From contig WFMF01000409.1 of NCBI GenBank assembly GCA_011033025.1, positions 62,001 through 126,000 on the forward strand: a stretch of DNA of 64,000 nucleotides, in the 5' to 3' direction. The DNA comes from Beroe forskalii. Taxonomy: Eukaryota; Ctenophora; Nuda; Beroida; Beroidae. The notes below the pieces were generated by a model, which had not been told where the DNA came from, made no database searches, and saw only the letters and a program-made list of their open reading frames with translations. Of the stretch, positions 42,598 to 59,097 are shown in pieces. The position numbers and the translations under genes are program-made. Positions within the stretch are counted from its first letter, which is position 1. Each line of letters opens with the position of its first letter.

Positions 42598-42669
42598 GCG
42601 ATGGTGGTGTAATGGTCAGCATAGTTGCCTTCCAAGCAGTTGATCCGGGTTCGATTCCCGGCCATCGCA
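42598..42669 (+). tRNA. tRNA-Gly (TCC)
   Basis: 72-nt cloverleaf. The acceptor stem GCGATGG/CCATCGC has discriminator A. The D-arm contains the A box (TGGTGTAATGG). The anticodon loop CTTCCAA gives anticodon TCC at 42,631-42,633, reading GGA. The T-arm GGGTTCGATTCCC carries the B box. No intron. A Pol III terminator of six T (42,674-42,679) follows within 5 nt. Very close to the typical animal tRNA-Gly(TCC). Confidence 0.96.
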
Positions 42670-44880: not shown

Positions 44881-45825
44881 TTATACAGCTTGAACCTCGT
44901 AAACACGTATCTCATTGTTCGTGTAGCCAGCGAATAACGTTTGCCCGTCTGAAGACCATGCGAGACATGTGCACTCCACTGGGGTATTAGAGGTAGTGTT
45001 GTCGAGTCTCTGCTCGTCGACGATTTCTTTGCCTTCCAGATCCCAGATCTTGATTTGAGCCCCAGTAGCAGCGCAGAGCCAGTATCGGTTAGGTGAGAAA
45101 GCCAGAGCACTGATCTTCTCCCCACAGTCCAGAGTGTAGAGATGCTTGTCGGCGTTCAGATCCCACAACATCGTCTTGGTGTCCTGTCCGCCGGACGCAG
45201 CCAGAGAGCCGTCAGGGGAGATAGTCACGGTGTTCAGGTGGTCGTTGTGTCCGATGTGGTTAGTCTTGAGCTTGCAGTTGGTCAGGTTCCACACTTTCAC
45301 CAGGCCGTCCCATCCAGCAGAGACTAGGAGAGGGTTCTTCTGATTAGGACTGAATCTCACGCAGGATACCCACTCGGAATGGCAGTCCTCCTGGATGGTG
45401 TACTTGCACTCAGCCAGGGTGTTCCACAGCTTGATCGTCTTGTCTCTGGAGCCCGACACGATCTGCCTGTTGTCAGCGGAGAAAGCAACGGACAGGATAT
45501 CTTTCTCGTGACCCCAGAACTGACGGGTGGTCACTCCAGTAGACAAGTCCCACAGCCTCATGGACTTATCCCAAGATCCGGACAGGGCGAACTGCCCATC
45601 TGACGAGACGACGACATCTGATACGAAGTGGGAGTGACCGGTCAGGGCTCGCTTGGCGTGTCCGTAGTTACCATCTCCGTCTTTGTTCAACTCCCATTGG
45701 ATGATAGTGTGGTCACGTGACGAAGAGAGGATCATGTCGGGAACTTGAGGGGTGGTGGCGATTTGAGTGACCCAGCCATTGTGCCCCTTTAGACTCCCCT
45801 TCAACACCAATTGTTCTGTAGCCAT
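44881..45825 (-). CDS. RACK1: RACK1, receptor for activated C kinase 1
   Basis: A complete single-exon frame of 314 residues (family about 317), starting [19 protein letters not shown] and ending in [11 protein letters not shown]. Seven WD40 repeats form the beta-propeller, with repeated GH...WD/WN ends (for example [57 protein letters not shown]). RACK1 is a core 40S ribosomal-subunit protein near the mRNA exit and a scaffold for protein kinase C and other signalling proteins. The DxK motif used for 40S contact appears in repeat 1 as SSSRDHT, with H where K is usual. No introns interrupt it, unlike several neighbours. The frame is intact with high coding GC, so it looks functional. Confidence 0.98.
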
Positions 45826-48466: not shown

Positions 48467-49102
48467 TATATTCTATATTTGAGCAAATTTGCTTGCTGTA
48501 ATCTACGAAATGAATCAGTTTCAATTTATTGAATACTGTTCCATTGGGTAAAAGGACGTCTGACCCCCCAACCTTACATCCCCTACGTGACAACCTCTAC
48601 TTCAGTGTAATGCAAATATATAAAGGAAAGTGGGCGGGGGGCAAACCGCAAACATCCCAGTTCGATAATTGCTGCGACATTTGACCCCATCATCACATCC
48701 CCCTGATCAAGAAACACAAACCAAACGGATTGATCTGGGCATTTTCGAAGTGCGACATGTGATCCCCTATAGGCACAGTAAACTACTATGCAGCTGTGCT
48801 TGGGAACGGGGGTTTATGTGTTGCACCATCACCTGGCCTGAGGACGTTGTGTAAACCAACATGAAACCTGTCAGTATGACTCCATGAGAACTTTCCTGAC
48901 TCCATGGCCATATAATCATTGTATGACAAAAGAGAATAGAGGGCCCTTAATTTTTTCTGAGTCAGTTTGTGAGAGGGCATGGGGATTGGACGTTTAAAGA
49001 AGCCCCTCGCTCTATAGCTAACTTCACACATCTTGCGAGGCAGTTAAAATCATGGGTCGATCTTTCAGCCTTTAAGTACTTGAACTGCATAAACTTACTT
49101 AT
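48467..49102. other. gene-free spacer
   Basis: No gene or clear repeat seen. Confidence 0.4.
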
Positions 49103-51283
49103 GGTCATGTTGAAAGCTGTCTTGACAAATTTTATAGTCTATAAAATGCTTGGTTGAGGGGCTCCACAAGTATTTATCATTTTGAGTCATGTGGAGACTT
49201 CTGCCTGAGGAAATTTTACATCCATTTTTTAAAGAACGAAATTTAAAGCTTGATTGGTTCAAAAGCTATAGCCTAATATATGACGTGTGGAGCTACGTGT
49301 GGAGCAAGGCCCTCAACCAGCTCCAGATGGACATTTTTGATTGAAATTTTAGTAGCTAATGAGTTACATCATTTCACAACTTTTTATTAAGGTTTCTAAC
49401 ATTTATTCCTCAACCAATGTGGAGAAATGTTAAAAATCAATATTAAAATTCCCTCAACCAGGGGTTTTATGTCCAATTTGGAGCCAGAAATTCCAATTTT
49501 AGCTGAAGTCATCTTCTGGCCAAATGTTGGAGGCCATAAAAGTTCTCTAGTGTCCTCAACCAGTGTGGAGAACCATTTCAAATACTCTCACCTCTTCAAT
49601 TCTAAAATGTGGAAAATGAGAAATTGTGGGTAACCATCAAATTTGTATCAATTATGAAGCAACACTTTGGTTATAAAGGCCCATTTAGTATTCTGTGGCT
49701 CATCAAGGGTTTACTGACAGGATTGTTAGCTAATTGTATGATCTAGCCCTCAACCATGTGGAGCTGTACCCATATCTATAATTTATATCAGTCTCCACAT
49801 CTGGTTGAACATTCAAATCAATGTAATGTTTATTCAATGTTATCTAATATCTATTTGTGAACAAAAAAGGATGCAATCTTGAATATTATCTCAACCATGT
49901 GGAGACACTCTTCCATTTTGTATTGGCAACTATTATCAAATCTTTAGCTAATTTATTTGTCAACTTAAGATTAATTCTTGCTTTGGTTAAGGAAACCATT
50001 AACTTTTAACTGATAATATTCATGTTTGGAATTATGAACCATCAAGGTGAACGAGACTCTCAACCATGTGGAGCACACAAGTCACACATGAAAACTCACA
50101 CAACACAATAACAGTAACGGTAATTAATTTTGCTGTAGGTAATTAGATATTGTTTTGAGACTGCTCCACTTGGTTGAGTTTTTATGATGTGCCACCGACA
50201 AAACAAAACAACATGATTTTGTGATTACATATCAACGAATTACATCATCACTAAATCGCCCAAAATACTCTTATAGATCACGTTAGCCAAGTGTGTTACA
50301 AATCATGTCCCAGACTTGCATGACAGCAAGCTCCACACTGGTTGAGCTTTAGCCATTTCACTCAGCATGTTTTCAAACAGCAGTAGAAAACATCGCTGGA
50401 TTGTTCATCTTGTTCTAAATAGTAGCAAAAAATGGAACCTATATTGAAGCTGGATTATAGATGATCAATTCGTGCCCCAAATGTCTCCACATGGTTGAGT
50501 AGAGACAACTGAGTGCTGGTTTAATGTTAAGTATCAATGAATGATATTTTATGCTTGATTTAAAACCTTTAAAAGATGTACCTCTTGTTAAAAAGAGATG
50601 ATAGGTTTGTACATCTTCATTTGTGAATAAAAGGCTCCACATTGGTTGAGGATACCTATAAGGAGTCACATAACTTACTTTTTATCTATATTCTTCCTGT
50701 CATAGCGATCAAAGACCCTTTCTGGTTAAAAAGGCGACTTAAATTGAACTTAAAGCACTTTTCATTAACATTCAATTCATTAGAATGCAGCTCCACAATG
50801 GTTGAGGACTGTAACACATTTCAATCATGGAAAATTGGAATCATATATGTTTGTTTTAGTTTTTAACAAAGGTTTGACATCTCTATTCACTAAACTTTTG
50901 ATTCTGTGAACGTTCAAAAATTGCCTTAGATTAAGAAGGATGCTCCACATCAGTTGAGTAACCAAGGTTACTCAACCGGGGTGAAGTATGTTCTCAAGGC
51001 ATTTCCAGAGATAAATCAATTTCAAAAATTATGTTTAACCTAATGCTGCTCTCTGGAATCCTATGAACAAAAACCTGGTTAATTCTAGTCACTGGCTCCA
51101 CAGTGGTTGAGATACAGACCTAAAATTGGTATCATAAGACATTTCAATCACTGTGCAATAACGTCATTAAGTATCATCTCAAAATTATGTGTATAAGTAC
51201 TAATAACACGTAATTAACATTTTGGGGTGAAAAATGGGTAAAAATCGGTCCTCAAATGTGTCAAGACAGCTTTCAACATGACC
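49103..51283. mobile_element. non-coding inverted element with phased 15-16 bp motif array
   Basis: Bounded by a perfect 25-bp inverted repeat (49,103-49,127, starting GGTCATGTTGAAAG; complement at 51,259-51,283). Inside, a 15-16 bp motif recurs between unrelated sequences. As CTCAACC-N2/3-GTGGAG: 49,409, 49,555, 49,749, 49,890 and 50,059 (half-sites at 49,187, 49,296, 49,310 and 49,453). As its complement CTCCAC-N3/4-GGTTGAG: 49,793, 50,164, 50,331, 50,485, 50,635, 50,791, 50,943 and 51,096. Right-half spacing is 150-167 bp. Orientation flips near 50,110, so the whole is roughly mirror-symmetric. No coding frame is present. It could be a non-autonomous DNA transposon with subterminal transposase sites. 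I see no target-site duplication, so the true ends may differ. Confidence 0.65.
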
Positions 51284-51749
51284 TTATTGAGGACTGCTAG
51301 GGCACGTAAATGCCATCCCAAGGTCATTTAGGTAATGCATGGAGACAGTTGAATGAATGAATGAATAAAATGTTTACAGCACAATTACAATGTATATATT
51401 TTCCCGAGTTTATATAAATGAAGCTTCTAATTTGTGCTGAGAGAGAACACTCAGCCAATAATTAAGTTAACTCAGGAAATCATACATGTATTTGAATTAA
51501 TAATGAAATAGTTTAAACAAGCCTGGCAAGGATAAGAATATATGGGGTGGATTTACAGTAGGGATGATCTGCACTTGAATTAAATAAGGGTTTGAAGTCT
51601 CAAGTCGGAGACCATTACCAACTTTCTTACTTCCTTCGATATTGACAACATAAAACAGCATTAATTATACCTACTAGTCGGTTCCCGTCCTACGGACGGC
51701 GAATGATGGCAGCCGTATGAGCTAACGGCCACATGTCCCTTAGAGTGAT
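51284..51749. other. spacer with one half of a dispersed repeat
   Basis: 51,370-51,470 (TTTACAGCACAATTA ... GTGCTGAGAGAGA) is similar in the same orientation to 52,750-52,840 (TTTACAGCACAATTA ... GTGCTGAGGGAAA). No gene seen. Confidence 0.45.
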
Positions 51750-52372
51750 TTTGACCAAAGTGAGTTTTGAGGGGAAATTCGAACTTTAATTTCTGTGAAA
51801 AAGCTTCCCACGCCTCAACGGTGTCCAATATTGCCGACAATATTCTCAAAACCTTTAGTCATCATAAGCAACTCATAGCGGAAGGAATTTTGAAAAAATT
51901 CGAAACTTTGATTTTTGTGAAAAAAGGGCGTGGCCTCCACGCCCCTCAGGGTGACCCAATTTCGGACAAAATTCTCAAAATTAGTATTCATCATAAGGAA
52001 CTCGATGGCGGAAGGAATTTTGAAAAAATTCGAAAGTTTAATTTTGCGAAAAAAGGGCGTGGCCTACCGCCCCTCAGGGTGACCCAATAACTCGGACAAA
52101 ATTCTCAAAATTTTATTCATCATGAGCAACTCAATGGCGAAGGAATTTTGAAAAAATTCGAAAGTTCAATTTTGCGGAAAAAAGGGCGTGGCCTCCCACG
52201 CCCTCAGAAGGTGACCCAATAATTCGGACAAAATTTCTCAAAATTTTTATTCATCATAAGCAACTCGATGGCGAAGGAATTTTGAAAAATTCAGAAAGTT
52301 TAATTTTGCGAAAAAAAAGGGCGTGGCCTCCCTCAGGGTGGCCGAAAAAATTTCTCATTATTTTTCTGATTT
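51750..52372. repeat. tandem satellite, about five units of 130 bp
   Basis: Units of 129-133 bp. GAAGGAATTTTGAAAAA recurs at 51,881, 52,011, 52,140 and 52,273, with AAAAAAGGGCGTGGCC and GGTGACCCAAT in each. The first unit is most diverged and the last is truncated. A single relative occurs at 48,085. Open frames across it are by-products of the repeat. Confidence 0.9.
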
Positions 52373-56831: not shown

Positions 56832-59097
56832 GGCTATATACTGGGTGAACTGCAGTTCATATGAAGTCGCCGCGCACTTCATATGAATTCATATGAATTC
56901 ATATGAGTTCATTTGAATGCGTTTACCAGTTCAATAAATTTTTATATGAATGAACTTCATATGAACTTCATATGAATTCATATGAACTTCATATGAACTC
57001 CACCTAGTTCATATGAACTTCATATGAACTCATATGAATTCATTAAACACGGATGAACTAGTTCACCAAAATTTAGTGAACTGAGATGCATATGAATTCA
57101 TATGAACTCATATGCATTCCAGTTCGCCTTGAATTCATATGAACTAGGATGTTCATCTCGCGGACTCCAGTTCAACGGAGTTCAACGCAGTTCAACGGAG
57201 TTCAACGCAGTTCAACGCAGTTCAACGCAGTTCAACGAATTCATCTCGAAGTTCATCTAGAAGGTCAAAATGATAACTTAACAGATATTTCGGGATGGAT
57301 CAAAAAATGGATCAGCGACGTACGAGAGCGGCAGTGCGGCACCGCAGTGCCGCGTTGACGCCAGGGCAGTGCCATGGTGAAGCCACGAGGACGCCACTAC
57401 TGGGCAACGATGAAGCCACAAGGGGCGCCCACGGTGACATCATGGCAGTCATGGCAGTTCCACTGTGAAGCCATGGCGTCTTCATGACCGTCGTGGCTTA
57501 CACCATGGCACTGCCCTATGCGTCGATGTGTGGCGACTGGCGCTACCATGGGGCCCTCTTGGCGTTGCTGCTCTGATCTATGCCCGATAAGTCTCTCATT
57601 CCGTTGACTGCTGAGTGGCGTCACCTATTGAAAGGCTTTTTCAATTTTAAAGAGGCTGTTAAACTTCACCAAATTAGCTGCATCTTGATCCATTTCACTA
57701 AAAGGGCTTCCAAAATCAAATAGTTAAAATCAGACTCAAGTCTTAATGAGCTCTTCCATAAACGATTTTTTCGTACTCTTGTTAAGTGTACAGTCACGTG
57801 ACAGCTAAAAATTTCACTTACATCATGAATTAACTCTAGTCACTCTACAACACTCAGTGACTCGACGACTCAAATAGACTCGATGCCTCAACTCGACGAC
57901 TTGATTTGGCGACTCTCTGACTTGTCTCAACGACTTTGACTCGACGACTCGGCTCAACGACTCGACTCGACGACTTCGACGACTCGACTTCGACGACTCG
58001 GCGACTCGGCTCGACGACTCGACTCGACTCGACTCGACTCGACGACTTCGACTCGACGACTCGGCTTCGACGACTCGACTCGGCGACTCGACTTCGACGA
58101 CTTCGACTCGACGACTCGACGACTCGACTCGGCGACTCGGCTCGGCGACTCGACGACTCGGCGACTCGACTCGGCGACTCGACTCGACGACTCGACTTCG
58201 ACGACTCGGCTAATCGACTCGACTAAGTCGTCGAATCATTGAGTTGTCAGGTCGTCGAGTCGTCGAGTCGTCGAGTCGTCGGTCGAGTCGTCGAGAAGTC
58301 GAGTCGAGTCGAGTCGTCGAGTCGAGTCGAGTCGTCGAGTCGAGTCGTCGAGTCGGAGTCGTCGAGTCGAGTCGTCGAGTCGAGTCGAAGTCGTCGAGTC
58401 GTCACTCGAGTCGTCGAGTCAGTCGTCGAGTCAAGTCAGTCATTGAGTCAAGTCATTGACTACCTCCGCTGTCAGATAACATTTCTATCTACATTATTAT
58501 TTTCTCATTCCTAATGAGCTAATGGAATTGGAAATTTGGAAGGACGTGTTGCGTAAAATAAGTGCTCGCAGTGGAGGGTAGGGTAACACTAACAGTTACA
58601 TACAGTCGTTTAGGTCTATTCTGTTGCAAAGCTAAGTTTTTCCAAAATAACATATTGTTATTCCCATTGAGTGACATGAACTCAGGTGAACTCAAATGAA
58701 CTCAGGTGAACTCCAGTTCAACGCAGTTCAACGCAGTTCAACGCAGTTCAACGTAGTTCAACGCAGTTCAATGAATTCAGGTGAACTCCAGTTCAACGCA
58801 GTTCATATGAATGAACTAGTTCATTCATATGAATTCATATGCATCTCAGTTCACTAAATTTTGGTGAACAAGTTCATCCGTGTTTAATGAATTCATATGA
58901 ATTCATATGAAGTTCATATGAACTTGGTGGAGTTCATATGAAGTTCATATGAATTCATGTGAAGTTCATATGAAGTTCATTCATATAAAATTTATTGAAC
59001 TGGTAAACGCATTCATATGAACTCATATGAATTCATATGAATTCATATGAAGTGCGCGGCGACTTCATATGAACTGCAGTTCACCCAGTATATAGCC
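56832..59097. mobile_element. foldback transposon with about 280-bp repeat-built arms and 8-bp TSD
   Basis: Starts GGCTATATACTGGGTGAAC at 56,832 and ends with its complement at 59,097. GAATTAAA is duplicated on both sides (56,824-56,831 and 59,098-59,105). The arms, to about 57,110 and from about 58,812, consist largely of the palindromic word TTCATATGAA in variants. Inside are direct arrays of AGTTCAACGC (57,169-57,238 and 58,713-58,775), a 600-bp unique part and a mirrored TCGAC array. No transposase frame. Long arms made of short repeats and an 8-bp TSD are typical of foldback or Mutator-like elements; hAT or P types also make 8-bp TSDs. Confidence 0.85.
57850..58465. repeat. mirrored CTCGACGACT / AGTCGTCGAG array
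   Basis: Left of about 58,228 the sequence is permutations of CGACTCGACGA; right of it the same is reverse-complemented (GTCGAGTCGTCGAG). This makes a 600-bp foldback at the core of the larger element. Several frames stay open (Arg/Ser/Val-rich) only because the repeat lacks stops. Confidence 0.9.

Follow-up and report, generated by a model that had tools for sequence, protein, structure and literature searches.

Phased, mirrored site arrays in a probable non-autonomous DNA transposon of Beroe forskalii and their putative zinc-finger transposase

Positions 49103-51283 of the window, the 64,000-nucleotide stretch of Beroe forskalii DNA analyzed here, are likely occupied by a non-autonomous, internally deleted DNA transposon with phased arm sites that the zinc fingers of a long copy would bind. 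This reading draws on terminal inverted repeats (TIRs), 4-bp target-site duplications, copies dispersed through the genome, conserved half-sites, and right-arm spacers that do not align with each other and are nearly constant in length. The initial annotation had listed a non-autonomous transposon with phased transposase sites among its possible readings, and this one gains support from the dispersed TIR-bounded copies, the 4-bp duplications and a long coding copy. Its other two readings, a boundary or silencing element and a new repeat type, did not.

Layout and genomic copies of the element

The element measures 2,181 bp in a genome of 216 Mb. The 25-bp perfect inverted repeat that the initial annotation saw at its borders is present (GGTCATGTTGAAAGCTGTCTTGACA) and forms the core of a 33-bp pair with 94% complementarity. 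The features of the window copy are as follows.

49099..49102, no strand: target-site duplication TTAT, 4 bp, left
49103..49127, + strand: left terminal inverted repeat, 25 bp (58 genome matches when up to 3 mismatches are allowed, 53 exact; none for the reversed control)
49128..50073, + strand: left arm, 5 full sites CTCAAC..GTGGAG and scattered half-sites
49409..49424, - strand: left-arm site CTCCACATTGGTTGAG
49555..49570, - strand: left-arm site CTCCACACTGGTTGAG
49749..49763, - strand: left-arm site CTCCACATGGTTGAG
49890..49904, - strand: left-arm site CTCCACATGGTTGAG
50059..50073, - strand: site CTCCACATGGTTGAG, the final one of the left arm
50074..50163, no strand: central junction of the arms, where the long copy C740 has about 4.5 kb of extra interior
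50164..51258, + strand: right arm, 7 full sites CTCCAC..GTTGAG
50164..50178, + strand: site CTCCACTTGGTTGAG, the initial one of the right arm
50331..50346, + strand: right-arm site CTCCACACTGGTTGAG
50485..50499, + strand: right-arm site CTCCACATGGTTGAG
50635..50650, + strand: right-arm site CTCCACATTGGTTGAG
50791..50806, + strand: right-arm site CTCCACAATGGTTGAG
50943..50958, + strand: site CTCCACATCAGTTGAG, without the G before GTTGAG and missed by the exact pattern
51096..51111, + strand: right-arm site CTCCACAGTGGTTGAG
51259..51283, - strand: right terminal inverted repeat, 25 bp
51284..51287, no strand: target-site duplication TTAT, 4 bp, right

Of the twelve near-palindromic sites in the window copy, the left arm contributes five (CTCAAC-N3/4-GTGGAG) and the right arm seven (CTCCAC-N3/4-GTTGAG); the leftmost 300 bp of the element lack full sites. 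All twelve have the GTTGAG half towards the near end, which makes the arms mirrored, and the reversal of orientation that had been noticed lies between the sites at 50059 and 50164. The motif array is real: an exact search of the window for CTCCAC-N(2-5)-GGTTGAG gave 11 matches, which all fall in 49409-51111, and 100 shuffles gave none. The half-site GTKGAG occurs 33 times in the element, whereas 300 shuffles averaged 1.7 and never exceeded 6. The regularity described for the right half is equally clear, with intervals of 167, 154, 150, 156, 152 and 153 bp (SD 6.1 bp, CV 0.039) and no arrangement as regular in 1,000,000 random placements. The proposed phasing at about 150 bp applies to the right arm only, since the left-arm intervals are 146, 194, 141 and 169 bp. 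By these counts, a chance motif was rejected. A CRISPR-like array was discarded as well, because the repeats are mirrored, the spacers recur across aligned copies and the genome is 216 Mb in size.

Several other features were seen nearby. A 129-bp tandem repeat of 3.9 copies (51825-52332) starts about 540 bp to the right of the element. Another mirrored element of about 2.27 kb (56832-59097) has inverted arms of about 270 bp that are 97-99% complementary and rich in 10-11-bp repeats of the ATGAATTCAT type, with a mirrored CGACT minisatellite within. The window also holds a single open frame that is RACK1-like by eye (44881-45825) and a tRNA-Gly(TCC) gene (42598-42669).

A DNA search of the genome showed that nearly full-length copies number at least 17 including the window copy, and that the other 16 share 85-96% identity with it, which answers the initial annotation's call for further full-length copies; partial copies are also present. 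Four other copies match the window copy at 92-97% identity. Eleven copies at different places form subfamily B, with pairwise identities of 99.2-100% over ungapped columns; from this degree of identity, the family looks recently active. For 21 distinct copies, both TIRs are present in exact form within one fetched locus; among these, the 4-bp duplication is exact in 14, one base off in six and without fit in one. The exact duplications of these 14 copies comprise TTAT, ATAA, ATAT, GTAT, AGAT, TTTT, TTAA, ATTA and ATGT. TIRs, a duplication of fixed length and dispersed copies, the features by which a cut-and-paste DNA transposon is recognized, were all found.

The genome-wide motif search that had been suggested gave 297 exact matches to CTCCAC-N(2-5)-GGTTGAG and 11 to the reversed control. 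Among the matches listed, four isolated ones lie on contigs without a family match (C199, C202, C209 and C214), and the exact motif is largely confined to the family.

Some loci have rearranged family sequence. In L054 (G000:C233:222200-224400), one element end, consisting of the TIR and about 240 bp, occurs as three successive copies at distances of 516 and 518 bp; this is an element end turned into a small satellite. L056 contains a diverged stretch that is 71% identical to the element centre. This stretch matches DNA in L045 at about 96% identity, and 765 bp of it occur in L045 as an inverted duplication; both sites found in L056 carry a mismatch each. A 1.1-kb insert at L040:1553-2653 (G000:C172, about 41.85-42.95 kb), with TGTTAACAACA at both sides, lies inside the central remnant of the element and is probably a different mobile element nested in a family copy.

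Conservation of the sites and spacing of the arms

Column counts were made on eight of the 18 aligned sequences, with partial copies left out of the alignment. The near-identical subfamily B was reduced to one copy for the count of variable columns and to a majority row for the count of shared and private differences. In the eight rows, variable columns amount to 7/144 in the half-site cores, 34/144 in the 6-nt flanks, 6/43 in the site middles, 1/60 in the TIRs and 437/1,736 in the rest, and four of the seven in the half-sites are due to a single copy, L015, at a deletion edge. Half-site variability was as low in only a fraction of 0.0004 of 20,000 circular shifts. Since half-site columns vary far less than the flanks and the rest, the selection on binding sites that the initial annotation suggested is supported. 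Half-sites outside full sites are hardly conserved (11/54 columns variable).

Differences common to at least two of the eight rows are absent from the half-sites (0/144) and frequent elsewhere (186/1,934; Fisher p 1.2e-6). Half-sites are depleted of private differences too (7/144 vs 296/1,934, p 0.0002), and the contrast between private and shared differences is barely significant (p 0.048). Most simply, copies would drift once inserted, and only those with intact sites would move again. Drift after insertion alone is not sufficient to explain the depletion of private changes in the older copies, unless many of these changes arose before insertion.

In the young subfamily, there is no significant excess or lack of changes in the sites (variable columns 2/144 vs 37/1,934). 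The sites of the young copies, L025 included, make up 8.4% of the length and hold 11 of 165 indels and five of 38 substitutions. Small indels inside the sites of some young copies would be expected if the sites were nuclease targets that are cleaved and then repaired with small indels, but they are not enriched there (P 0.83), and the indels themselves have another probable source, which makes cleavage a most improbable account. The 165 indels were scored against the majority in subfamily B and L025 (L013, L014 and L016-L025); 126 of them are single-base, 112 of these stand beside the same base, and this class looks like assembly error. Assembly error may also account for the one-base mismatches in the duplications of six of the 21 copies.

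Spacer similarity was tested on C740, the long copy of the family. Its right-arm spacers do not align with each other (15/15 pairs at z -0.6 to 1.9), and neither do left with right spacers (54 pairs, z -1.9 to 2.6). The left arm is different. Its intervals alternate between 141.8 +/- 3.3 and 191.8 +/- 3.2 bp, an extra site or half-site follows 44 bp on at three steps (647/691, 981/1025 and 1316/1360), and a three-site unit recurs at about 335 bp. Alignment of three whole units, sites included, gives z 5.6-6.8, to which the sites contribute, and the stretch preceding the whole units aligns at z 4.0-5.3. When the sites are removed, the first spacers still align at z 2.0-3.9; the second spacers do not (z -0.5 to 0.7). 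The initial claim of spacers without similarity is therefore correct for the right arm and between the arms, and is not for the left arm, which is weakly similar to itself with a 335-bp period. The alignment of whole units and first spacers makes an old tandem duplication likely on the left.

This period invites the explanation that a site-bearing unit was duplicated in tandem to give the arms, the regular spacing being an unselected relic of a decayed satellite. We regard this as quite improbable for the element as a whole: the 335-bp order with its aligning units and first spacers agrees with it, but the second spacers and the right-arm spacers do not align, and the half-sites are conserved far beyond their flanks. 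A plain satellite as the whole answer was rejected on the right-arm spacers, although the left arm probably did originate by tandem duplication. The relic explanation is also at odds with spacer length. From the indel-to-substitution ratio of the family and an assumed 0.3-1.0 substitutions per site on each lineage, drift should give an SD of 20-37 bp, compared with 6.1 bp in the right arm and 3.2-3.3 bp within the two left classes. The ratio was obtained from three pairs of copies, with events in the freely varying centre counted in. In these pairs, all 19 indels of at least 3 bp fall in 49851-50600 and none in the outer arms, with a boundary picked post hoc and with some events recurring across pairs. 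In the young copies, indels of this size are also found in the outer arms (11 in 12 copies across the element). Spacing that is tighter than the family's indels predict points to selection on spacing, which we consider likely by inference; the drift argument does not apply to the right spacers if these never had a common ancestry.

The long copy and its predicted protein

The long copy (C740:66258-72991, corresponding to L039:359-7092) has 6,734 bp, TIRs as in the short form and the duplication ATAA. Its 17 exact sites comprise ten in the left arm, nine of them in the usual orientation and one reversed, and seven in the right arm. Between the arms, the minus strand carries an 847-codon open frame and a zinc-finger frame. 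With two introns placed by eye (GT..AG, 162 and 263 bp), the frames yield a predicted stop-free protein of 1,070 amino acids with C2H2 fingers at residues 11, 41, 88 and 120 (Pfam zf-C2H2, E 5.5e-17), a leucine heptad at 221 and a proline-rich repeat. AATAAA was not found up to 400 nt past the stop codon.

The motifs VMDFSEN, SDNCSQ and EVDSAGG, read by eye, provide a candidate DDD triad (D696/D778/D819). The catalytic part has no significant family in Pfam (weak matches to ApeC_platyh, E 0.019, and DUF7869, E 0.025), and its sole match in NCBIfam (E 0.00025) is on a repetitive stretch and far below the model's cut-off. A comparison of the protein with the PDB gave two matches, E 0.11 and 0.21, neither significant. 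A transposase scan of viral contigs and genome contigs returned one and five pattern matches, respectively, with no relative among them. The protein search of the window and all fetched loci finds the transposase in the C740 loci only, which leaves one coding copy. Inserts in C172, C902 and others were rejected as autonomous copies, having no DNA match to the C740 interior at E 1e-8.

Six of the eight aligned rows, the window copy not among them, keep a central remnant, such as CTGTTGCTAACACAGACG, with similarity to the right end of the C740 interior (GTTGCTGCGACACAGACG). Because of this similarity, the short form appears to derive from the long one by internal deletion. We infer that the C740 protein is the transposase of the family.

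The fingers of this protein can be compared with the sites. Finger 4 has the helix NKASLKR, which we take to suggest GTN. The helices of fingers 1-3 (QAKNLKR, RKDALKR and RRENLER) resemble modules for GAA, C/GTG and GAG, which are printed as QSSNLVR for GAA, RNDALTE and RSDELVR for CTG or GTG, and RSDNLVR for GAG (PMC5260015, PMC9705829). In PMC5260015, the modules are mostly outputs of design tools, and the experimental entry for one GAG has another helix. Fingers 2 and 3 are separated by a 25-residue linker. The pairs formed by fingers 1-2 and 3-4 suggest GTGGAA and GTNGAG, and the half-sites, GTGGAG and GTTGAG, are similar to these predictions. The probability that a random 16-mer contains GTNGAG and a non-overlapping GTGGAA at up to one mismatch is 0.00035. 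The prediction is one base off, GAA being predicted where GAG is seen, and it is weakened by having been made after the site was seen.

Each of the 12 window sites and of the 17 exact C740 sites combines a GTGGAG half with a GTTGAG half, and no site has two identical halves; recognition by two distinct finger pairs would explain this. The dimer-binding site proposed in the initial annotation is possible, yet this constant pairing fits two different finger modules at least equally well. As judged from the sequence, the arm sites are probably docking sites for the zinc-finger transposase of the longer relative.

Even in a transposon, the sites could be bound by a host zinc-finger or silencing protein instead of the element's own transposase, and would then be kept as a promoter, insulator or silencer that exploits the host. 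Any bound protein would be compatible with conserved sites between inert spacers, and non-autonomous copies, which encode no protein, retain the sites. A host protein is nevertheless unlikely, given that the exact motif is largely confined to the family by the genome-wide counts, that the element's own fingers approximately predict both half-sites, and that the sites are mirrored about the centre with a constant orientation of the GTTGAG half in the window copy.

In the transposon reading that we prefer, transposase from long copies would load on the sites in the arms of both forms, long and short, with finger pairs 1-2 and 3-4 each reading one half-site (about GTGGAG and GTTGAG). Many protomers would load along both arms at set spacing, the loaded transposase would bring the two mirrored ends together, and the catalytic domain would cut at the TIRs. 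Insertion into AT-rich targets would then produce the 4-bp duplications. Of these steps, loading, pairing and cutting are proposed from the element's features. Deleted copies would keep their arms because only copies that load transposase get moved.

As a tentative extension, which we hold to be possible and rather doubtful, the transposon ends may act as a chromatin-scale ruler, with about one transposase site per nucleosome-sized step. Selection would act on the spacing and leave the spacer sequence free, and the transposase would assemble across several nucleosomes per arm. Two distinct finger pairs belonging to a single protein would read each site in opposite directions, and this would again explain why its halves always differ.

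Comparison with known transposons and significance

Target-site duplications are diagnostic for several superfamilies. Kolobok and piggyBac duplicate TTAA, which is found in one of the 14 exact duplications here, and both were rejected. Transposons of the hAT group make duplications of 8 bp; hAT was excluded because the duplication here is 4 bp and Pfam shows no hAT domain in the C740 protein. Sola transposases use DDD catalysis. Pfam and NCBIfam give no Sola match for the C740 protein, in which the candidate D696/D778/D819 was assigned by eye.

In overall layout, the element resembles hAT transposons (Hermes, Ac and Tol2), which have TIRs and many short subterminal sites that are bound by an N-terminal zinc finger (BED) of the transposase (PMC10368747). 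In Hermes, some of the zinc-finger-bound subterminal repeats are quasi-palindromic, and the dominant orientation is opposite at the two ends (PMC10368747). The Hermes sites are 4 bp long, concentrated near the tips and asymmetric (PMC10368747), whereas the sites here are 15-16 bp long and about 140-195 bp apart over about 1 kb per arm. Mutation of putative inner end sites at one end of Hermes leaves about 70% of the activity, according to the excerpted account, which implies that not every such site need matter (PMC10368747).

The CACTA elements (Spm/En, Tam1 and Tgm) also have motif arrays in their ends, with motifs of 12 bp in En-1 and 17-20 bp in Tgm1, and those of Spm/En are recognized by an element-encoded DNA-binding protein, TNPA (PMC2613891). 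Their arrays are dense, and at one end of Tgmt*, for example, 732 bp hold 24 repeats (PMC2613891), whereas the sites here are sparse and phased. CACTA elements have ends that read CACTA, and Tgmt* makes a 3-bp duplication (PMC2613891); the ends GGTCATG and the 4-bp duplication found here led us to reject CACTA/EnSpm.

Sola2 elements have TIRs and 4-bp AT-rich duplications, and their transposase in Dictyostelium fasciculatum has 888 amino acids (PMC3627910). The element described here has the AT-rich 4-bp duplication, the TIRs and a long putative transposase as well, a likeness by description, not by transposase sequence. However, the AWWT pattern of the D. fasciculatum families (PMC3627910) fits only two of the 14 exact duplications here, and the excerpted Sola2 descriptions make no mention of phased site arrays. 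Among the matches listed in a search of open-licence literature, the titles and the first parts of the abstracts held no phased subterminal arrays of this kind.

Subterminal transposase sites are already known, and in Hermes and CACTA elements the excerpted accounts describe them as short or dense and near the tips. The sites found here are long, sparse and evenly phased over about 1 kb per end, with freely changing DNA between them. Apparent recent activity and a stop-free coding copy in the same genome make it testable whether transposon ends are measured in chromatin units. The family also offers a natural case in which selection may preserve zinc fingers jointly with the DNA sites they would bind.
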